Position numbers and translations under genes: made by a program | In this document: piece by piece, positions 27,672 to 38,180 of the stretch | Layout of the letters: each line of letters opens with the position of its first letter | How positions within the stretch are numbered: position 1 is the stretch's first letter | The notes under the pieces: generated by a model | Told to the model about the DNA's origin: nothing | Database searches by the model: none | The model's input: the letters and a program-made list of their open reading frames with translations, nothing else | Origin: Halomonas sp. 'Soap Lake #6' | GTDB taxonomy: Bacteria; Pseudomonadota; Gammaproteobacteria; Pseudomonadales; Halomonadaceae | Direction of reading: 5' to 3' | Assembly: GCF_003031405.1 (NCBI RefSeq) | Contig: NZ_CP020469.1 | Location: 4,526,001 to 4,590,000, forward strand | DNA length: 64,000 nt

Positions 27672-28631
27672 TTATTTAGGGTGGCGCAGGCGTGGGTTGG
27701 TGACGATGGCGATAATATCCGCCAGCATATTAAGCCCGATATATACCGCTGCGAAGATCAACCCAACTGCCTGTACCACCGGCACATCACGTTTCGACAC
27801 ATGATCAATTAAGTATTGGCCCATGCCTGGGTAGACAAATATCACCTCGACCACCACCACGCCGACAATCAAAAACGCCAAATTCAGCATGACCACATTC
27901 ACCACGGGGGCGATGGCGTTAGGAAAGGCGTGTCGGGCAATAATACGAAAGGTGCCCAGCCCTTTAAGCTCAGCGGTTTCGATATAGGGCGACTGCATTA
28001 CATTTAAAATGGCAGCGCGGGTCATGCGCATCATGTGCGCCAAAATTACTAGCGTTAACGTCGCGGCGGGTAAGGCAATAGCATGTAAGCGTTCGCCCAG
28101 GCTCATGCCGCTATGCACAGTGGACACACTAGGGAACCAGTTGAACTTCACCGCAAACAGGTAGATCAGCAGGTAGCCAATAAAGAATTCCGGCAGCGAA
28201 ATGGCAGTGAGGGTAGTACCGGAAATGGCCCGGTCGGGCCAGCGATTTTGATAGCGCACCGCGACAAGCCCCAGCAAAATCGCTAGCGGCACCGCTACAA
28301 TCGCTGTCCAGAAGGCAAGAAACAGCGTATTACCAACGCGACCCCATAGTGAGCTGCCGATATCCTGTCGGTTCGACAGCGCCGTGCCCAGGTCGCCCTG
28401 TAAAATACCACCTAGCCAATCGAAATAACGCAGCCAAGCAGGTTGGTCCAGGCCCAGCTCGCGTCGCAGGTTTGCTACGGCTTCCGGGGTGGCGCTTTGG
28501 CCGAGAATCGACTGAGCTACATCGCCCGGCAACAACTGGGTGCCGACAAAAATTAGCACCGAGACAGCGAGTAATAGCAAGAGGCCCAGCGCAATGCGCT
28601 GGGCGATCAGTTTAAGTACAAAGGTGTTCAT
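27672..28631 (-). CDS. Peptide-type ABC transporter permease (DppB-like)
   Basis: A 319-residue permease of the OppB/DppB type. It begins NTFVLKLIAQRIALGLLLLL, has the PGDVAQSILGQSATPEAV loop, and has the coupling segment TAELKGLGTFRIIARHAFP. The start at 28631 (14 bases after the binding-protein stop) was preferred over the frame opening at 28664, which would overlap the upstream gene and add an atypical N-terminus. It forms the channel with the DppC-like gene. Confidence 0.91.
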   Translation of the reverse strand: MNTFVLKLIAQRIALGLLLLLAVSVLIFVGTQLLPGDVAQSILGQSATPEAVANLRRELGLDQPAWLRYFDWLGGILQGDLGTALSNRQDIGSSLWGRVGNTLFLAFWTAIVAVPLAILLGLVAVRYQNRWPDRAISGTTLTAISLPEFFIGYLLIYLFAVKFNWFPSVSTVHSGMSLGERLHAIALPAATLTLVILAHMMRMTRAAILNVMQSPYIETAELKGLGTFRIIARHAFPNAIAPVVNVVMLNLAFLIVGVVVVEVIFVYPGMGQYLIDHVSKRDVPVVQAVGLIFAAVYIGLNMLADIIAIVTNPRLRHPK

Positions 28632-28645
28632 AGCAGAGATCCGAG

Positions 28646-30244
28646 TTATGAGGCCAACCAGCACTTAGAGAGCGCAAAGCCTGCCATCATCTCGCCCATT
28701 GGGTTGGCTGACCAGCCCCCAACGTTACTTAATGTGGCTTCGATGTAGTCGTTAAACATCGGTAGGATCAGGCCGCCTTCGTCTCGCACGGTCATAGCCA
28801 TATCGCGATATAGCTCGGCACGACGGGCCTGGTCTAATTCGCCGCGGGCTTCGCGCGCTAAGGTATCGAAATCATCGCGGAAGAAGCGGGTGTCGTTCCA
28901 GTCTGCGCTGGAGATATACGCGGTGGAGTACATCTGGTCTTGGGTGGGGCGGCCACTCCAGTATGAGGCGCAGAATGGTTGTTTATTCCACACCTCGGAC
29001 CAGTAGCCATCCCCAGGTTCGCGACGGACTTCCATATTGATGCCTGCTTGAGCGCAGCTTTGTTGGAACAGCTGAGCGGCATCCACCGCGCCTGGGAAGG
29101 CCACATCCGAGGTACGTAGTACGATAGGGCTGCTATGGCCTGACTTTTTGTAGTGATAGTTAGCCCGTTCGGGATCAAATTCACGCTGGGGAATGTCGTC
29201 AGGGAACAGTGGGTAGGCCTTGTTGATCGGGAAGTCGTTGCCCACACTGCCATAGCCACGCAGGATACGCTCGACCATATCTTCCCGGTTGATTGCATAC
29301 TTCAGCGCGAGCCGCAGGTCGTTATTGTCAAACGGCGCGGTATCACAGTGCATTGGGAAGACGTACTGCGCTCGGCCCGAGGTGTTGTTGATCACAATAT
29401 TGGGCAGTCGCTGTACCATATCGACAACCCGAGGCTCTACCCGGTTGATGAGATGCACCTGGCCGCTCTGCAGCGCTGAAATACGCGCAGTGGGATCGTT
29501 GATTACGATAATTTCAATTTGATCGGCAAAGCCGTACTCGTCGGGATTCCAGTAGTCTTCAAAGCGCTCAGCAATCTGTCGCACACCGGGCTGGAACTCG
29601 ACAACTTTATACGGGCCGGTGCCAATACCTGCTGCTGGATTATCCTTGCCGCCATTGGGCTGAATCATCAAGTGATAGTCAGATAGCAGGAAGGGCAAGT
29701 CGGCGTTTGGCTCTAGGGTCACGATAGTGACTTCATAAGTATCGGTGGCTTGTATCGATTCAATGCCGCGCATAATGCCTAGCGCACCAGACTGCGAGTC
29801 TTCATCGGAGTGGCGTTCAAGCGTGGCAACCACATCAGCAGCCGTCATCTCCTGGCCATTATGGAACTGAACGCCACGGCGGAGCTTAAAGATCCAGGTT
29901 TTGGCATCAGCGGTGGAGTCAACGCTTTCCGCAAGGCGGGGTACAAGCTCGCCCTCTGGTGAAACGTTGGTTAGGGCTTCCCCCCAGGATTGGCCAAAAG
30001 AGTGCTGTACTTGGCTTGTCCAGCTAGCTGGATCCAGGCTATCGGTTGATTCACCGCCCTGCATGCCTGCTTTGAGGATACCGCCACGCTGCGGAGTAGC
30101 GGTGCCAGCGAACGCTTGGCTGGTTAGCAGTGAACCCGCGAAAGGTGCAGCAATGCCGAGTGCCGCAGCGCGGCGTAAAAAGTCGCGACGCGACAGTTGG
30201 TCGAGAGTCGTTTGCTGGGTAAGAGTCTTGAGTGAAGGGTGCAT
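28646..30244 (-). CDS. Peptide-type ABC transporter substrate-binding protein (family 5), Tat-exported
   Basis: A 532-residue periplasmic receptor of family 5. The N-terminus has the twin-arginine motif SRRDFLRRA followed by a hydrophobic stretch ending at SQAFA, so export should use the Tat pathway. The SBP_bac_5 fold is evident from VPRLAESVDSTADAKTWIFKLRRG and GTGPYKVVEF. Tat export of this class often marks receptors for peptides, opines or glutathione-like ligands, but the ligand here is unknown. The gene opens the operon after the HAD gene; AAGGGAA lies before the start. Confidence 0.9.
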   Translation of the reverse strand: MHPSLKTLTQQTTLDQLSRRDFLRRAAALGIAAPFAGSLLTSQAFAGTATPQRGGILKAGMQGGESTDSLDPASWTSQVQHSFGQSWGEALTNVSPEGELVPRLAESVDSTADAKTWIFKLRRGVQFHNGQEMTAADVVATLERHSDEDSQSGALGIMRGIESIQATDTYEVTIVTLEPNADLPFLLSDYHLMIQPNGGKDNPAAGIGTGPYKVVEFQPGVRQIAERFEDYWNPDEYGFADQIEIIVINDPTARISALQSGQVHLINRVEPRVVDMVQRLPNIVINNTSGRAQYVFPMHCDTAPFDNNDLRLALKYAINREDMVERILRGYGSVGNDFPINKAYPLFPDDIPQREFDPERANYHYKKSGHSSPIVLRTSDVAFPGAVDAAQLFQQSCAQAGINMEVRREPGDGYWSEVWNKQPFCASYWSGRPTQDQMYSTAYISSADWNDTRFFRDDFDTLAREARGELDQARRAELYRDMAMTVRDEGGLILPMFNDYIEATLSNVGGWSANPMGEMMAGFALSKCWLAS

Positions 30245-31284: not shown

Positions 31285-32253
31285 TTATCCACGCAATGGA
31301 AATGTTGGATAGGCGTTTAACAGGCCCGCTAACTCATTGCACACAAAGCGTGCCTCGATCCACTGTTCGAGATGTGTATAGGTGTACTGGAGAAAGCGCT
31401 GAGCCGATTGAGGCAAGCGTCGATCATTGCGCACAATCACCTGCCAGTGGCTTTCAATCGGAAGCCCTGCAACAGGCAGAATCGTGAGTTCGGGATGCTC
31501 GTTTGGCAGCACATGCTCCGATAAAACGGCGACTCCCATTCTCGCTGCCACACCAACACGAATAGCTTCATTGCTCGCCATTTGCAGGGTTTTCTGCATA
31601 GTTAAACCATGCTCCTGAAGCCAGCTCTCCAGCAGCATACGCGTGGCCGAGCCTGGCTCGCGCAGTAGCAAGCGCTCCTTAAGCAGTTGTTCCATGGTAA
31701 TGGAGGAGTGTTGCGCAAGAGGGTGGTCGGCAGCCGCGATCGCAACTAGCGGGTTGCGCATAAAGCGTGCTGCTACCGCATGGGCGAGAGCGGGAGGGTG
31801 GCTGAAGACGTATAGGTCGTCCTCTTGGCGCTCAAATCTCGCCAATACCTGGCGACGGTTGCCAATATGTACAGTCACATCCACATCAGGAAATGCTTGG
31901 CTAAATGGTCCAAGTAGGCGCGGTAAAACATATTGAGCAGTATTCACCAGGGCAATGCTAAATCGTCCTCTGCTGCCTTGCTGCAAATCGCTGAGTTGGT
32001 CCGCAAAGTCATCAAAGCGGCCTAGCACATCCCGGCTAGCATGATAAAGCGCTTGCCCTGTGGCTGTCATGGTTAGGCCCTGTGTATGGTGTTCTAACAA
32101 AGGGCTGCCCACTGCTTCGCTCAACCGCTTGAGCTGCTGGGATACCGTAGGCTGGGTGAGATGAAGCTGCCTCGCAGCTTCACTAATTGACCCACAGCGC
32201 ACCACGGTCACATACACCTGCAACAATCTAAACGTCAGGTGACGAATATTCAT
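31285..32253 (-). CDS. LysR-type regulator (CbbR/CmpR-like)
   Basis: A 322-residue LysR regulator with an N-terminal helix-turn-helix (GSISEAARQLHLTQPTVSQQLKRL) and a C-terminal effector-binding domain. It is divergently transcribed from an SbtA-type bicarbonate transporter with a 144-base shared spacer, the usual position of the regulator relative to its target. CbbR/CmpR-like proteins respond to carbon-fixation metabolites, and the overall form of this one is compatible with that group; this is inference from context and general similarity. Confidence 0.87.
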   Translation of the reverse strand: MNIRHLTFRLLQVYVTVVRCGSISEAARQLHLTQPTVSQQLKRLSEAVGSPLLEHHTQGLTMTATGQALYHASRDVLGRFDDFADQLSDLQQGSRGRFSIALVNTAQYVLPRLLGPFSQAFPDVDVTVHIGNRRQVLARFERQEDDLYVFSHPPALAHAVAARFMRNPLVAIAAADHPLAQHSSITMEQLLKERLLLREPGSATRMLLESWLQEHGLTMQKTLQMASNEAIRVGVAARMGVAVLSEHVLPNEHPELTILPVAGLPIESHWQVIVRNDRRLPQSAQRFLQYTYTHLEQWIEARFVCNELAGLLNAYPTFPLRG

Positions 32254-32397: not shown

Positions 32398-33339
32398 ATG
32401 CCAGATATTGTGGTGATGTTTTTCTTACTGGGGCTAATAGCAGGGGCAGTGAAATCAGACCTGCAGGTCCCCAAGGCCACCTACGACACATTAAGCCTGC
32501 TGCTAATGTTAACTATTGGCTTAAAGGGCGGTATGGCGCTGTATGGAAATCTGCATTGGGGGTTAGTGCCGGAGCTATTAGGGGTAGCACTGTTATCGGC
32601 GTTGATACCACTGCTGTTGATGCCAGTACTGCGGCGTTGGGTGCGCCTTTCCGCAGCGGATAGTGCTAGCATTGCTGCCCACTATGGCTCGGTGAGTGCA
32701 GGTACCTTTGCGGTCGCGCTCGCTTATGCGGAAGCGCGGCAACTGGCCGTAGGTAGTGAAGTAACGCTCTATTTAGTGGCGATGGAACTGCCTGCTATCA
32801 TGATCGCGATTGCGCTATTCAGACGTCACCAAGGCGCGGCCGTTAAAGAGAGTACGCGTAAGCTCTGGCATGAAACGCTGACTAACCGCGGTGTGATCTT
32901 ACTGATTGGCGGTGTGGTAATTGGAGCACTCTACGGGCCATTTCAAGGAGAAGAAGTCACCGCGCTGTTTACTGGTGCGTTTAAAGGTGTGCTGGCGCTA
33001 TTCCTATTGGAAATGGGGCTAACCGCCGCGCAAACGCTGCGTCCAATGCCATGGCATCATTGGCGTTTGGTGACTTTTGCCCTTGTTACGCCAATGCTGC
33101 TGTCGCTGCTAGGCATTGCTGTAGGCGTGGCGCTAGGGCTGCCGTCTGGCTCGGTGGTCATTCTTGCTGCCTTGGCTGCCAGTGCTTCCTATATTGCAGC
33201 ACCCGCCGCGATGCGCGCTGCAATTCCCCAAGCGAATATTGGCCTTGCTATGCTGGCATCACTGGGTATTACCTTTCCGATCAACGTCATGCTGGGTATT
33301 CCGCTTTACCACCTACTCATTGAGTCGTTGCTGAGTTAG
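32398..33339 (+). CDS. sbtA: Sodium-dependent bicarbonate transporter (SbtA family)
   Basis: A 313-residue membrane protein with about ten hydrophobic segments and the SbtA/DUF897 pattern: LLMLTIGLKGGMALYG, HYGSVSAGTFAVALAYAE, LVAMELPAIMIAIALF and, near the end, ASASYIAAPAAMRAAIPQAN. SbtA imports bicarbonate with Na+. In a non-autotrophic host it could feed carboxylases such as those of fatty-acid, pyrimidine or anaplerotic routes. It is slightly shorter than cyanobacterial SbtA. The partner SbtB was not seen. The start follows no strong ribosome binding site. Confidence 0.85.
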   Translation: MPDIVVMFFLLGLIAGAVKSDLQVPKATYDTLSLLLMLTIGLKGGMALYGNLHWGLVPELLGVALLSALIPLLLMPVLRRWVRLSAADSASIAAHYGSVSAGTFAVALAYAEARQLAVGSEVTLYLVAMELPAIMIAIALFRRHQGAAVKESTRKLWHETLTNRGVILLIGGVVIGALYGPFQGEEVTALFTGAFKGVLALFLLEMGLTAAQTLRPMPWHHWRLVTFALVTPMLLSLLGIAVGVALGLPSGSVVILAALAASASYIAAPAAMRAAIPQANIGLAMLASLGITFPINVMLGIPLYHLLIESLLS

Positions 33340-33416
33340 TCATTTTTGAGCCGGGCGCAGGGAAGTGTTGTAGCCACCCCAATTGACAGCGCCCGTCTCA
33401 GTACCTAGGGTAGCAG

Positions 33417-33522
33417 CTGTCCTAGGGGAGCCTGCATTGGCTGAGATTCCACCGCCACTTGGCGTTGGTAACCCTTAGAACCTGATCCGGGTCATGCCGG
33501 CGAAGGGAAGGATGTAGCCAAC
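33417..33522 (+). promoter_or_regulatory. TPP riboswitch (THI element) for the sodium symporter gene
   Basis: The conserved blocks of the thiamin pyrophosphate aptamer occur in order: AGGGGAGCC, GGCTGAGA, ACCCTTAGAACCTGATCCGG and GTCATGCCGGCGAAGGGA. A closing P1 stem is formed by TCCT and AGGA. Confidence 0.95.
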
Positions 33523-33529
33523 CAATACA

Positions 33530-33594
33530 CCTCTTTGCTTTCGCCTGCCTGCTGTGTGCCCCCTGCATCCCCGGTCTATTAACAGGCAAAGAGG
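33530..33594 (+). promoter_or_regulatory. Expression platform sequestering the ribosome binding site
   Basis: CCTCTTTGC (33530-33538) is fully complementary to GCAAAGAGG (33586-33594), which contains the Shine-Dalgarno sequence of the symporter gene (ATG at 33605). This suggests that TPP binding blocks translation rather than causing termination. Confidence 0.7.
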
Positions 33595-33604
33595 ATTTTC
33601 TTTC

Positions 33605-35050
33605 ATGCTGCTTGACCCTATTTGGACCGGCCTTTGGCTATCTCTCTGTGCCATTGTATTGGCTGTGCCAGGCATACTCTATGCCCGCCGCCATCGCGAT
33701 AATCTTGAAGATTACATCATCGCTCGCAACAGTCAGAACACCCGCGCCACTGTGCTCACGCTGGTTGCGACCACGCTAGGTACCTGGATTTTGTTCGGTC
33801 CTGCCCAGGCTGCTACCTGGGGTGGCATTGGGGCCATACTCGGCTATGCGTTTGGCTCTATGGTCCCCCGGCTAGTGATGATCCCTCTTGGTCGACGGAT
33901 GCGCGAACTGATCCCCGAAGGCCATGGCTTAACGGAGTTCGTTATCCATCGTTACGGCCGTATCATGTACGCGTTTACACTGGTGATTATGCTGTTTTAC
34001 CTGTTCATTTTATTGGCTGCCGGGTTGACCGCCGTGGCCCGTATGGTGGGCTTACTGGCCCCCATTCCGCTATGGGTGACTGCTAGTGTGGTTATGGTCG
34101 CCACGTTGATTTACACCTTTTACGGTGGGCTGAGAGCATCTATTTACACTGACAAGCTACAGATGGTGGTGATTATGCCGCTGCTGGGGCTGCTGCTAGT
34201 ATTTGGTTGGCAGGCGGCAGGGGGCGTTGCGCCGACGCTGGCAGGGCTTGCCGAGAGTGCACCGCAACTGCTGCAGGTGAGTGATATAGGTGGAATACGC
34301 GCAGGCTTGACGTTCTTCCTTGCCGTGGCGCTAACCGGGCTCTTTTATCAAGGCACTTGGCAGCGCATTTATGCAGCTAAAGACACCAAGGTGCTGCGCC
34401 GTGGTTTCTGGATAAGCGGTGTGTGCAGCTTTATCGTGGTGGGCTTGATGGGGCTATTTGGGCTGGCTTTTGTGGGGCTTGGCCTTGAAGGCGATGGCTC
34501 TGTAGCGCTGTTCAGTGTGCTGCTGGCAGATGTGCCGCTATGGTTCGCGTTGGCGTTGGTTCCACTGGGCTTGGCGTTGGTGATGAGTAGTGCCGACTCC
34601 ACCATTAGTGCCACGTCGAGCATTATCGCTGTGGATATGGGGCGATTGATCCCCAACGCGAGCAGTGCCTCATTGATGAGCATGGCGCGCTGGCTGATTG
34701 TTTTAGCCGCTATCCCTGTCACTTGGGTTGCTTCTCAGGGGTATAGCGTCCTGTACCTGTTTTTGCTAGCCGATTTGCTATGTTCGGCAGCGGCGTTCCC
34801 CGTATTTTTTGGGCTTTTCTATCGTCGTTACACAGGCCTTAACGCCGTCATCAGTACCGCGCTAGGACTCGTGGCTGGCTTAGCGATGTTCCCTGCACCA
34901 GGTGGGAGCACGGCAACACTACTGGAGTCTTTCCTGTTGGCGGCACTGGTGCCCGTGGCGGTATCGCTACTGCTCTTACGTGTACTGCCTTCCCGCCCTG
35001 CGTATGACTTTGGCCTGTTACACACGGCGGTGCGCCGCTTTAAGGGATGA
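33605..35050 (+). CDS. Sodium:solute symporter under TPP riboswitch (thiamin/precursor-type)
   Basis: A 481-residue SSS-family symporter with about 13 membrane helices. Typical SSS segments are RNSQNTRATVLTLVATTLGTW, LTEFVIHRYG, TFYGGLRASIYTDKLQ, and the sodium-site region MSSADSTISATSSIIAVDM. The TPP aptamer immediately upstream indicates control by thiamin pyrophosphate, so the cargo should be thiamin, hydroxymethylpyrimidine, a thiazole or a degradation product. A comparable SSS transporter (ThiV) has been predicted in other bacteria from riboswitch context. The start ATG 33605 follows AGAGGA. The stop lies 50 bases from that of the convergent flavin monooxygenase. Confidence 0.87.
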   Translation: MLLDPIWTGLWLSLCAIVLAVPGILYARRHRDNLEDYIIARNSQNTRATVLTLVATTLGTWILFGPAQAATWGGIGAILGYAFGSMVPRLVMIPLGRRMRELIPEGHGLTEFVIHRYGRIMYAFTLVIMLFYLFILLAAGLTAVARMVGLLAPIPLWVTASVVMVATLIYTFYGGLRASIYTDKLQMVVIMPLLGLLLVFGWQAAGGVAPTLAGLAESAPQLLQVSDIGGIRAGLTFFLAVALTGLFYQGTWQRIYAAKDTKVLRRGFWISGVCSFIVVGLMGLFGLAFVGLGLEGDGSVALFSVLLADVPLWFALALVPLGLALVMSSADSTISATSSIIAVDMGRLIPNASSASLMSMARWLIVLAAIPVTWVASQGYSVLYLFLLADLLCSAAAFPVFFGLFYRRYTGLNAVISTALGLVAGLAMFPAPGGSTATLLESFLLAALVPVAVSLLLLRVLPSRPAYDFGLLHTAVRRFKG

Positions 35051-35099
35051 ATGCCCGGCAGCCGATATAACGTTCGGCAACACGACCGCCCGGCATCGC

Positions 35100-36392
35100 T
35101 TACGTTGCCGGGCGCGACAGACCTAGGTGGTCACGCAGCGTGCTACCCGTGTACTCACGGCGAAATAGACCACGGGCTTGCAGTAGCGGTACTACCTGAT
35201 CAATAAAGTCATCGATACTCCCTGGCAGCGTGGGCGGCATTAGGTTGAAGCCGTCTGCGCCACCTCCCTCTACCCAGCGCTGCATCTCGTCAGCAATCTG
35301 CTCTGGCGTACCGACCATCGTGCAGTGGCCACCACCAGCCGCTAATCTGCCTAATAACTGGCGCAGTGTAGGGGCTTCGCTTTCGATAATACGCAAAATA
35401 GTGGCATAGCGTCCTTTTGGGCCAGCGAATGCCTCTAGCGGTGGCAGTTCGGGTAGTGGTGCATCCAGTTCCCAGTGGCGGCAATCCTGGCCGATAAACT
35501 GGCTTAACTGATGAAGTGAATCTTCAGTGGGTAAGCGCTCATCTAATTCACGCTGCTGTGCTTTTGCGGCGGCCTCGGTGGAGGCTACATAGGTGACTAA
35601 CCCAGGCATAATTGCCACTGGCGCACGGCCAGCGGCGCGTACCCGGGCTTGGATATCCTGGTAGTAGGCCTGGGCAGAGGGCAGGTCGTAGGCTACGGCG
35701 TAAATCGCCTCCGCATAGCGGGCAGCAAGGTTGCGTCCCGGTTCAGAAGCGCCCGCTTGAAATAGCACAGGGTGCCCCTGGGGTGGTCGCGGTACGGTCA
35801 GTGGGCCATCAACCAAAAAGTGTTCGCCATGATGGTCGATGGGCCGTACTTTGCTTGGATCTGCAAACTGGCCCTGCCGGTCGCAGCGTAGCGCATCGTC
35901 GGCCCATGAATCCCACAAGGCTAACACCGTGTGCGCAAACTCTTCGGCGCGGGCGTAGCGTATGTGCTGAGAAGGCATGGCCTCCCAGCCATGGTTGCGC
36001 GCCTCGCTATCAAACATCGAAGTGACTAAATTCCACCCCATGCGGCCGTTAGAAATATGGTCTAACGAAGCGAGCATTCGCGCCGCATGGAAAGGGCTAA
36101 AAAACGTACTGGATATGGTGGAGATCAGGCCGATGTGCTCGGTGGCCCGCGCCATGGCCGAGAGCGCCGTCAGTGGTTCCAGGAACCACTGTGGCCCCCC
36201 GGCCACGTTTCCTGCAGCATGGCCATCGGCGAAAAATACCGCGTCCAATTTTCCGCGTTCGGCGGTGCGTGCCAACGACTCGTAATAGCGAATGTCGCCC
36301 ATGCGTTCGACGGCTGAGTTTGGCTCGCGCCAAGCTGCTTTATGGTGCCCGCAACCCATGATAAAAAGATTGAGATGCATCTGTGTGGCCAT
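35100..36392 (-). CDS. LLM-class flavin-dependent monooxygenase (NtaA/SnaA/DszA type)
   Basis: A 430-residue luciferase-like flavin monooxygenase. Family segments include GCGHHKAAWR, AERGKLDAVFFADG, ISTFFSPFHAARMLASLDHISNGRMGWNLVTS and HFLVDGPLTVPRPPQGHPVLFQAGAS. Enzymes of this class use FMNH2 from a separate reductase, oxidising heterocycles, chelates or sulfur compounds. It follows the SDR gene with a one-base overlap (TGATG) and so lies in the operon headed by the second TPP riboswitch. No flavin reductase is encoded beside it. The likely substrate is a thiamin-related heterocycle, by inference from the riboswitch only. Confidence 0.85.
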   Translation of the reverse strand: MATQMHLNLFIMGCGHHKAAWREPNSAVERMGDIRYYESLARTAERGKLDAVFFADGHAAGNVAGGPQWFLEPLTALSAMARATEHIGLISTISSTFFSPFHAARMLASLDHISNGRMGWNLVTSMFDSEARNHGWEAMPSQHIRYARAEEFAHTVLALWDSWADDALRCDRQGQFADPSKVRPIDHHGEHFLVDGPLTVPRPPQGHPVLFQAGASEPGRNLAARYAEAIYAVAYDLPSAQAYYQDIQARVRAAGRAPVAIMPGLVTYVASTEAAAKAQQRELDERLPTEDSLHQLSQFIGQDCRHWELDAPLPELPPLEAFAGPKGRYATILRIIESEAPTLRQLLGRLAAGGGHCTMVGTPEQIADEMQRWVEGGGADGFNLMPPTLPGSIDDFIDQVVPLLQARGLFRREYTGSTLRDHLGLSRPAT

Positions 36393-37174
36393 CAGTTTTT
36401 AACCAAGCCGCCGTCGACCACTAAATTTTGGCCGGTGACGGCCCTGCTCCAAGGTGATGCAAAAAACAGTGCCGCATCCGCAAACTCCTCGGGGGTAGTG
36501 ACACGGCGTAGTGGCGTGTTGGCTGCGATGAGATCGAACACAGCTTCAGGCGTGGCGGCGGAAGCGTCGGTTGTGCGCAGCAGCCCACCCGACAACATAT
36601 TAACCGTAATACCGTCAGGCCCCAGATCGTTGGAAAGCGTACGGGTGAGCGACAGTAGTGCTGCCTTGGCAGCCGTATAGTCGTGATAAGGCACTACTGG
36701 GTTTTGGAAGAGGTTAGTTCCAATGTTAATAATCCGCCCACCGCCCTGTTCGCGCATGCCCGGTAGTGCCGCCTGAATGGTGTTGAGCGCGCCTCGTGCC
36801 ACGCCCTGCAACTGCTGGTCGAGGTTTTCCCAAGTGAGCGTGTCTGGGGTTGGGCGCGCATCGCCATTAAATGAAAAATCCGGCAGGGCATTATTAATCA
36901 GCGTGGTCACCGGCATTCCAAAATGCGCTTGTGCGGTGGTAAACATCGCCTTCACTGCTACTGGGTCACGCACATCCGCTTGTATCGCCAGAGCGCGCTC
37001 AGGGGCTTGTGCCGCCAGTGCTTCTGCCGCGTCAGCGCTGTTTAAGTAGTTCACGACAACCCGTGCGCCCTGCGCTAAAAACGCATGTGCCAGGCATGCG
37101 CCTAGGCCACGGCTAGCGCCAGTAATCAAAACAACTTGCTGGGAAAGCGGAAGTGCGGTGGGTATTGTCGGCAT
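36392..37174 (-). CDS. Short-chain dehydrogenase/reductase (SDR) under TPP riboswitch
   Basis: A 260-residue classical SDR with the cofactor motif TGASRGLG, NNALPDF, and the catalytic tyrosine/lysine in YHDYTAAKAALL; the terminal VVDGGLVKN is typical. It is annotated in relatives as a 3-oxoacyl-ACP-reductase-like protein, but nothing here shows a role in fatty-acid synthesis. ATG 37174 was selected over 37219 because GAGGG precedes it and the family N-terminus fits. It is the first gene after the minus-strand TPP riboswitch and is overlapped by the flavin monooxygenase (TGATG), giving a two-gene operon. Confidence 0.83.
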   Translation of the reverse strand: MPTIPTALPLSQQVVLITGASRGLGACLAHAFLAQGARVVVNYLNSADAAEALAAQAPERALAIQADVRDPVAVKAMFTTAQAHFGMPVTTLINNALPDFSFNGDARPTPDTLTWENLDQQLQGVARGALNTIQAALPGMREQGGGRIINIGTNLFQNPVVPYHDYTAAKAALLSLTRTLSNDLGPDGITVNMLSGGLLRTTDASAATPEAVFDLIAANTPLRRVTTPEEFADAALFFASPWSRAVTGQNLVVDGGLVKN

Positions 37175-37232
37175 TATGGTATGTCCCTCGTAAAGGCAAG
37201 AGATGCATACCGGCCACATGGCTGGCCATTAG

Positions 37233-37318
37233 CGTGACATCCCTTCGCCGGTATGAACTGGATCAGGTTCAGCGGGTCTTATCTCAGCCCTGACGTAATG
37301 CCAGGACACCCCGTGTCG
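37233..37318 (-). promoter_or_regulatory. TPP riboswitch (THI element) for the SDR-flavin monooxygenase operon
   Basis: On the minus strand the conserved blocks ACGGGGTGTCC, GGGCTGAGA, ACCCGCTGAACCTGATCC, AGTTCATACCGGCGAAGGGA occur in order, with GACA/TGTC closing P1. A GGCCA-TGGCC hairpin (37212-37227) lies between the aptamer and the SDR start and may be part of the expression platform. Confidence 0.95.
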
Positions 37319-37425: not shown

Positions 37426-37472
37426 TTTATTGGACTGCATTGCTTTGCAATCGGCAAAAGGAGAGATCAGAT

Positions 37473-38180
<708 letters not shown>

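Follow-up and report, generated by a model that had tools for sequence, protein, structure and literature searches.

In the ThiXYZ-YlmB-TenA salvage pathway, a breakdown product of the thiamin pyrimidine is imported and converted from formylaminopyrimidine (FAMP) via aminopyrimidine (AmMP) into hydroxymethylpyrimidine (HMP), and the YlmB and TenA enzymes of this pathway are hydrolytic. Excerpts of PMC10470507 set out the roles of YlmB and of TenA_E, the latter being credited with the use of FAMP. Another described system is ThiV/SSSP, a sodium:solute symporter (SSS) of SAR11, Methylobacillus, Marinobacter and algae. McRose et al. report it with a thiamin pyrophosphate (TPP) riboswitch and adjoining thiG in several Marinobacter (main text of PMC4260697). 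Excerpts of a 2024 SAR11 study give its signature as Tyr78, Asp139 and Phe254 (SiaT numbering) and argue that it carries HMP (PMC11452348). Here, we analyze a stretch of 64,000 nucleotides from Halomonas sp. 'Soap Lake #6' (contig NZ_CP020469.1, positions 4,526,001 to 4,590,000; hereafter the window), in which two TPP riboswitches enclose an SSS gene and an operon encoding a short-chain dehydrogenase/reductase (SDR) and a luciferase-like flavin monooxygenase (LLM). This SDR-LLM module is real, occurs across phyla and is part of the TPP regulon. We propose that it serves to salvage a thiamin pyrimidine vitamer under repression by TPP; the LLM would set the pyrimidine free in aldehyde form, to be reduced to HMP by the SDR. 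Taken in its entirety this statement has the balance slightly on its side; a role of the module in salvage of the thiamin pyrimidine is probable, whereas which two reactions take place, and in which order, is put forward tentatively and may well prove different.

An initial annotation, made from the nucleotide sequence of the window, had placed two complete TPP aptamers on opposite strands at the outer ends of a block in which an SSS gene converges with an SDR/LLM operon joined by TGATG, and this layout is borne out. With the Rfam covariance model RF00059 (gathering score 54.3 bits), exactly two aptamers in the window exceed the gathering score, both spanning the full model (1-105) and both found again in a whole-genome search. 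One lies in front of the SSS gene (33414-33525, + strand; 73.6 bits, E 1.3e-12) and the other in front of the SDR-LLM operon (37323-37223, - strand; 67.7 bits, E 3.7e-11). The symporter gene (33605-35050, +) encodes 481 amino acids matching PF00474 with 71.1 bits (cut-off 22.8). On the opposite strand, the SDR gene (37174-36392, -; 260 amino acids) belongs to the NF006393/PRK08642 type (437 bits, cut-off 292) and is followed by the gene of a predicted LLM monooxygenase dependent on reduced flavin mononucleotide (FMNH2), a member of the NtaA/DmoA family (36392-35100, -; 430 amino acids; TIGR03860, 529.8 bits, cut-off 279.7). Base 36392 is common to the SDR stop and the LLM start within the TGATG. 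Judged from the ribosome-binding site, the SDR likely starts at 37174 rather than at the upstream ATG at 37219. The initial annotation had also stated that no thi biosynthesis gene is present, which holds for the window locus itself and fails for the genome as a whole and for several related loci. The genome (4.80 Mb, a single contig) contains four TPP aptamers, so that two of its four TPP switches are devoted to the SSS/SDR-LLM locus; one of the remaining two stands before thiM-thiE and the other before tenA, which has thiC as the next gene. Since ThiG and ThiD are also encoded, away from both of these clusters, this bacterium can apparently synthesise its own thiamin.

The module is by no means confined to this genome. 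In a scan of genome-collection contigs with the LLM, the best 80 of 588 matches were examined; these loci split sharply into 19 with 63-96% identity and 61 with 52% or less. The same SDR (66-97% identity) directly precedes the LLM at all 19 loci of the first group, and a TPP aptamer stands before the SDR at 18 of them, L018 being the exception. Among the 61 distant loci the clade SDR is absent (0/61), remote SDRs (28-32%) occurring at a few, and an aptamer in front of the LLM was found at none, with at least 1.2 kb of upstream sequence available at 59 and less at L051 and L056; the distant locus L029 has one aptamer almost 4 kb behind its LLM. The 19 loci come from Halomonas, Marinobacter, Candidimonas, Azoarcus, Rhizobium, Micrococcaceae, Cryobacterium and Corynebacterium, i.e., the clade is spread over Proteobacteria and Actinobacteria, and a quick LLM tree recovers it as a single clade (Shimodaira-Hasegawa approximate likelihood ratio test 100 against six outgroup rows). 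Three further sets were defined by taxonomy: within the window's own family, 13 of 151 genomes carry the LLM, while the figure is 13 of 124 for the Marinobacter genus and 71 of 250 for Candidimonas's family. Aptamers were called with Rfam for the window, 20 carrier genomes and two loci without a regular-expression match, and by regular expression at most loci. Recurrent co-occurrence with TPP aptamers, the point on which the initial annotation had declared itself refutable, is found in all four sets (18/19, and then 12/13, 13/13 and 15/20 for the aptamer before the LLM operon), which overlap and cannot be summed: six Marinobacter genomes are in both the first and the third set, two LLM sequences from the second set also occur unchanged in the first, and the 20 loci read out of the 71 in Candidimonas's family are the best-scoring ones. 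Of the five exceptions in the latter family, L149 is cut by the contig end and the other four, L152 and L160 among them, have an aptamer solely on the symporter side. Chance occurrence of the aptamers was considered and is ruled out by E values on the order of 1e-11 or better together with the recurrence in four locus sets. Some copies are also plasmid-borne (four Pseudochrobactrum records and one Rhodococcus; one of each was read, and both have the aptamer and the SDR), and close relatives of the SDR occur in two Methylobacillus species (P0026, P0080). In-frame stops reported in some LLM copies sit at the end, and the translated matches of the own-family set are stop-free. At L173 (G036), a longer cut of the place of locus L127, no aptamer is matched by regular expression; a NUDIX gene overlaps the end of the LLM gene and a nucleoside deoxyribosyltransferase-type gene lies upstream.

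The symporter accompanies the pair at most loci read. The same SSS gene is present at 12 of the 19 clade loci, a thirteenth (L011) being truncated where the contig stops beyond a divergent aptamer, and at 15 of 16 further mapped loci, several of which come from genomes already counted; wherever it is present (12/12 and 15/15), an aptamer lies on its own strand. Its orientation varies, convergent in Halomonas and divergent with back-to-back aptamers in Marinobacter and most loci read in Candidimonas's family. Sequence searches of the PDB with the window's SSS matched choline, urea, glucose and multivitamin transporters, SiaT not being among them. The window's SSS shares with ThiV/SSSP the Pfam family and the TPP aptamer in front of its gene, and the co-location with thiG found here in Marinobacter agrees with the printed description (main text of PMC4260697). 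By family, aptamer and Marinobacter context, it is a ThiV/SSSP-like candidate importer of a thiamin precursor. What sets the present locus apart from that description is the enzyme pair, as the words 'monooxygenase', 'dehydrogenase' and 'luciferase' each occur zero times in the main text of PMC4260697, supplement excluded.

Thiamin genes themselves adjoin the module at some loci. In five Marinobacter carriers (G004, G005, G217, G240, G261) thiG lies within about 150 bases after the LLM gene, as confirmed at the protein level; in six more, thiG is elsewhere or was not found, these counts covering 11 of the 13 carriers (G175 and G202 lying outside the search). The Cryobacterium locus L013 reads TPP-SDR-LLM, thiE on the other strand, thiO...thiG-thiF/moeZ-like, then TPP-ykoE-ykoD-cbiQ, where the aptamer before thiO is weak (38.8 bits, under the gathering score). 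At L045, a Micrococcaceae locus, ykoE-ykoD-cbiQ stands behind a divergent TPP aptamer in the place where others have the SSS gene. Thus, at two actinobacterial loci, the only ones seen, a TPP-controlled energy-coupling-factor importer, of a transporter type unrelated to SSS, is found near SDR-LLM where many Proteobacteria have the symporter. From this position of YkoEDC at L013 and L045 and from its printed role, ykoCDEF being called an HMP transporter in excerpts of PMC12236431, it follows that SSS and YkoEDC may be exchangeable as importers. The initial annotation had described a thiamin-related module for uptake and oxidative conversion, perhaps of an oxidised or damaged thiamin or a pyrimidine/thiazole derivative, without choosing between the halves of the vitamin; the thiamin role is backed by the thiamin gene neighbours, the YkoEDC swap and the ThiC data given below, and these favour the pyrimidine over the thiazole half.

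Regarding the enzymes, Pfam assigns the three proteins of the module to SSF, Bac_luciferase and adh_short; none shows TenA or YlmB homology, so the module is not a member of the YlmB-TenA pathway, although it may work similarly. If our proposal is right, its logic of importing a pyrimidine breakdown product and turning it into HMP would be shared with that pathway, with the difference that hydrolytic enzymes act there and a flavin monooxygenase and an SDR, in a proposed O2-dependent route, act here. The LLM was compared with the PDB using an alignment-based AlphaFold model (predicted local distance difference test 91, a single-sequence fold having reached 38.6). The best folds are BdsA/DszA, CmoJ/YtnJ, the nitrilotriacetate (NTA) and ethylenediaminetetraacetate (EDTA) monooxygenases and the riboflavin lyase RcaE, with template modelling scores of about 0.8-0.9 and 31-40% identity. 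The window's LLM thus shares family (TIGR03860) and fold with NtaA, EmoA, DszA (BdsA), CmoJ, DmoA and RcaE, but it lies in a clade of its own, the nearest other LLMs being 47-53% identical, and this clade has its own operon partner, the SDR, and TPP control. This likeness is what speaks for a general sulfur- or nitrogen-scavenging monooxygenase of the DszA/CmoJ/NtaA type that came to lie between two TPP switches by accident, given matches in fold and family to BdsA, CmoJ/YtnJ and the NTA and EDTA monooxygenases at 35-40% identity. Such an accident is highly improbable, because the aptamer link recurs across phyla and the TPP-linked clade is distinct in sequence: at 46 positions, a residue conserved in at least 95% of its 84 rows, duplicates counted, is shared by no more than 15% of 61 neighbours. 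These clade-specific positions are consistent with a substrate of its own for the LLM clade. The enzymes related to this LLM cleave C-S or C-N bonds; many do so through oxidation of the adjacent carbon, which then departs as an aldehyde. We know of no member of the TIGR03860 family that acts on thiamin. The SDR carries Thr153-Tyr166-Lys170 at every one of 91 related loci, duplicates counted, and this invariant triad in the same operon as the LLM suggests that the SDR reduces the aldehyde released by the LLM to an alcohol. With a thiamin relative as substrate, the products to expect would be the pyrimidine carbaldehyde first and HMP second. No conserved flavin reductase partner for the LLM was seen among the neighbours scanned at some loci; the lone flavoprotein neighbour is one of the siderophore-interacting type after the LLM at the Rhizobium locus L019.

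From these elements a pathway can be outlined. The two aptamers, the gene families, the conserved module and the distribution of ThiC and ThiG were computed directly; the switch-off by TPP is expected from the known behaviour of the riboswitch class, and the transport of a pyrimidine vitamer as well as the nature and succession of both reactions are inferred. When TPP is scarce, both riboswitches would permit expression of SSS and SDR-LLM. The symporter would import a pyrimidine-bearing relative of thiamin, either an HMP-type vitamer or a thiamin breakdown product. Using O2 and FMNH2, the latter provided by a reductase encoded elsewhere, the LLM would oxidise the CH2 between the pyrimidine and a nitrogen atom, which may belong to an amine, a formamide or a damaged thiazole; this would release 4-amino-2-methylpyrimidine-5-carbaldehyde. 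The SDR would then reduce this carbaldehyde to HMP, which ThiD and ThiE could return to thiamin. A ThiD-type match is present in all 20 carrier genomes considered (the window's and 19 others), in 17 of them over the cut-off.

The half of thiamin that the module serves can be approached through the biosynthesis genes that carriers lack. Within these 20 genomes, ThiC was not found in seven and ThiG was not found in two, one genome being without both. Partial ThiC matches count as present throughout; among carriers these are G291 and G312. In the Marinobacter genus, ThiC was not found in 9 of 13 carriers versus 3 of 111 non-carriers (Fisher p 1e-8, strain kinship ignored; p 2e-7 when three non-carriers with sub-cut-off ThiC also count as ThiC-less), the three ThiC-less non-carriers being assemblies of 2.1-3.2 Mb that are possibly incomplete. 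ThiC-plus and ThiC-minus carriers are interleaved in the LLM tree, with six changes at the fewest. One of the four ThiC-positive Marinobacter carriers is an assembly of Marinobacter gelidimuriae (G005, contig C96, L177), whose ThiC is 95% identical to that of the window's genome and 77-78% to those of Marinobacter; this Halomonas-like ThiC may reflect contamination or transfer. In Candidimonas's family the trend is weak, ThiC not being found in 17 of 71 carriers versus 23 of 179 others (p 0.036). The Candidimonas genome G011 was found to have neither ThiC nor TenA, and its only two TPP aptamers sit at the SSS/SDR-LLM module. ThiG is retained by 25 of 28 ThiC-less carriers. The ThiC/ThiG pattern favours the pyrimidine half and points to it short of proof.

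The same data bear on a thiazole-side salvage, in which the SSS would import a thiazole vitamer and the LLM and SDR would restore 5-(2-hydroxyethyl)-4-methylthiazole for phosphorylation by ThiM. The TPP-controlled thiM-thiE of the window's genome, the position of thiG directly after the LLM gene in five Marinobacter carriers and the presence of C-S cleaving enzymes in the LLM family would suit it; with ThiC missing more often than ThiG, ThiG kept in nearly all ThiC-less carriers and the symporter family tied to HMP in print (excerpts of PMC11452348), we nevertheless regard it as unlikely. Alternatively, the LLM and SDR could replace ThiC outright and build HMP or HMP phosphate from a precursor other than thiamin, with the symporter as an extra. 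Yeast THI5 offers a parallel, making the pyrimidine from pyridoxal phosphate and histidine. Such a replacement agrees with the strong link between the module and loss of ThiC in Marinobacter, seen in Candidimonas and Cryobacterium too, and with the concomitant lack of TenA in Candidimonas. On the other hand, a TPP-controlled importer goes with the pair at most loci read, which favours an imported substrate, 54 of 71 carriers in Candidimonas's family keep ThiC, and no precursor is evident, so that a de novo route appears quite improbable. Equally improbable, in our judgement, is a protective role in which the pair would destroy a toxic thiamin analogue, e.g., bacimethrin or an oxidised vitamer, let in by the derepressed importer. 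Importer and enzymes do share TPP control, and bacimethrin is a natural antivitamin of this kind (excerpts of PMC12637900), but detoxification alone would leave unexplained both why ThiC is missing from carriers and why the pair sits next to genes of thiamin biosynthesis. Within pyrimidine salvage, a bolder version of our proposal is that an O2-dependent, TPP-repressed flavin monooxygenase/SDR route to HMP stands in place of ThiC and is a candidate main pyrimidine source across unrelated lineages in which no ThiC was found, namely nine Marinobacter, Candidimonas and relatives, and Cryobacterium, fed by a ThiV- or YkoEDC-type importer. This version we consider possible, with doubt prevailing.

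Several observations weigh against pyrimidine salvage by the proposed chemistry. None of SSS, SDR and LLM has a known substrate. ThiC is present in 13 of the 20 first-set carriers, among them the genome of the window, and TenA in 18 of 20 (a partial match in G014), so that an HMP salvage enzyme is already at hand in most carriers. The association with ThiC loss is weak in Candidimonas's family, most of whose carriers retain the gene as stated above, and in Marinobacter it takes no account of kinship among strains. Several of the genomes without ThiC measure only 0.8-2.3 Mb, a number of carriers were assembled from metagenomes, and completeness is given for few. ThiG is also kept in 9 of 11 ThiC-less non-carriers tested (of 26), hence its retention is not special to carriers. 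The importers ThiBPQ, ThiXYZ and CytX lie outside the search. Moreover, the LLM lacks an adjoining SDR at 2 of 20 loci in Candidimonas's family (L152 and L160), both of which have a divergent TPP-SSS, and no aptamer was found with Rfam at L018 and L127 even at E 0.1. L152 and L160 belong to the same genomes as L161 and L162.

TPP riboswitches are a class in which expression is switched off by TPP. In the window, candidate expression platforms can be drawn for both leaders. In front of the SDR gene, the fold gives a putative hairpin, GGTATG...CATACC, that would hold the SDR ribosome-binding site (37178-37211, -). In the SSS leader (33530-33594, +), CCTCTTTGC (33530-33538) is pairable with GCAAAGAGG (33586-33594) in a perfect nine-base stem that would mask the AGAGG ribosome-binding site, a weak candidate taken from the minimum-energy fold and direct reading. 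For comparison across loci, 82 SDR and 41 SSS matches yielded 34 and 23 distinct leaders, respectively, in which a ribosome-binding site could be recognised. This site is paired in 31 of 34 SDR leaders versus 0.64 of shuffles, which makes translational repression of SDR-LLM by TPP likely; for the SSS leaders the values are 14 of 23 versus 0.57, without a clear signal beyond composition. A sequestering hairpin is thus supported by the folds for the SDR leader and not for the SSS leader.

The surroundings of the block hold further features. Just before the first aptamer lie a gene for an SbtA-like sodium-dependent bicarbonate transporter (32398-33339, +; PF05982, 370 bits) and a divergent LysR regulator (31285-32253, -), to which CbbR is nearest (233.9 bits, under the cut-off of 450). 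Further upstream (27672-30244, -), a solute-binding protein of an ATP-binding cassette transporter (SBP_bac_5, twin-arginine signal), followed by a frame that gives the impression of a permease, is found beside a HAD-family hydrolase. Divergent from the SDR aptamer, a reading frame (37440-38180, +) carries consecutive His-Asp repeats close to its beginning and resembles, by impression only, a metal-binding secreted protein. A tmRNA gene (42385-42006, -; 204.8 bits) adjoins a frame (42922-42431, -) that appears SmpB-like from its sequence.

The initial annotation had supposed a little-described route. The transporter part is already in print as ThiV/SSSP (main text of PMC4260697), whereas among the papers listed in searches of open-licence full-text literature none was recognised as describing SDR-LLM together with TPP switches, an earlier tabulation being possible in older surveys and supplements outside this scope. 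A literature search for a TPP-regulated SDR under the gene name oarX gave unrelated papers, mostly on sheep genetics. Public records label the pair no more specifically than 'LLM class flavin-dependent oxidoreductase' and '3-oxoacyl-ACP reductase', so that two enzymes with generic labels gain a likely pathway.

For microbes in the sea, thiamin and the vitamers of its pyrimidine are in short supply. Excerpts of PMC10470507 describe oxidation of thiamin as a presumed source of diverse vitamers and call the transporters and genotypes that enable their use unclear. A widespread TPP-controlled oxygenase pair would be a concrete candidate for a further step of thiamin salvage. If the proposal is true, predictions of vitamin B1 auxotrophy would change, because absence of ThiC is read as auxotrophy. 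The LLM would, to our knowledge, be the first oxygenase in thiamin salvage, and aerobic bacteria could subsist on pyrimidines from thiamin that are beyond the reach of TenA.

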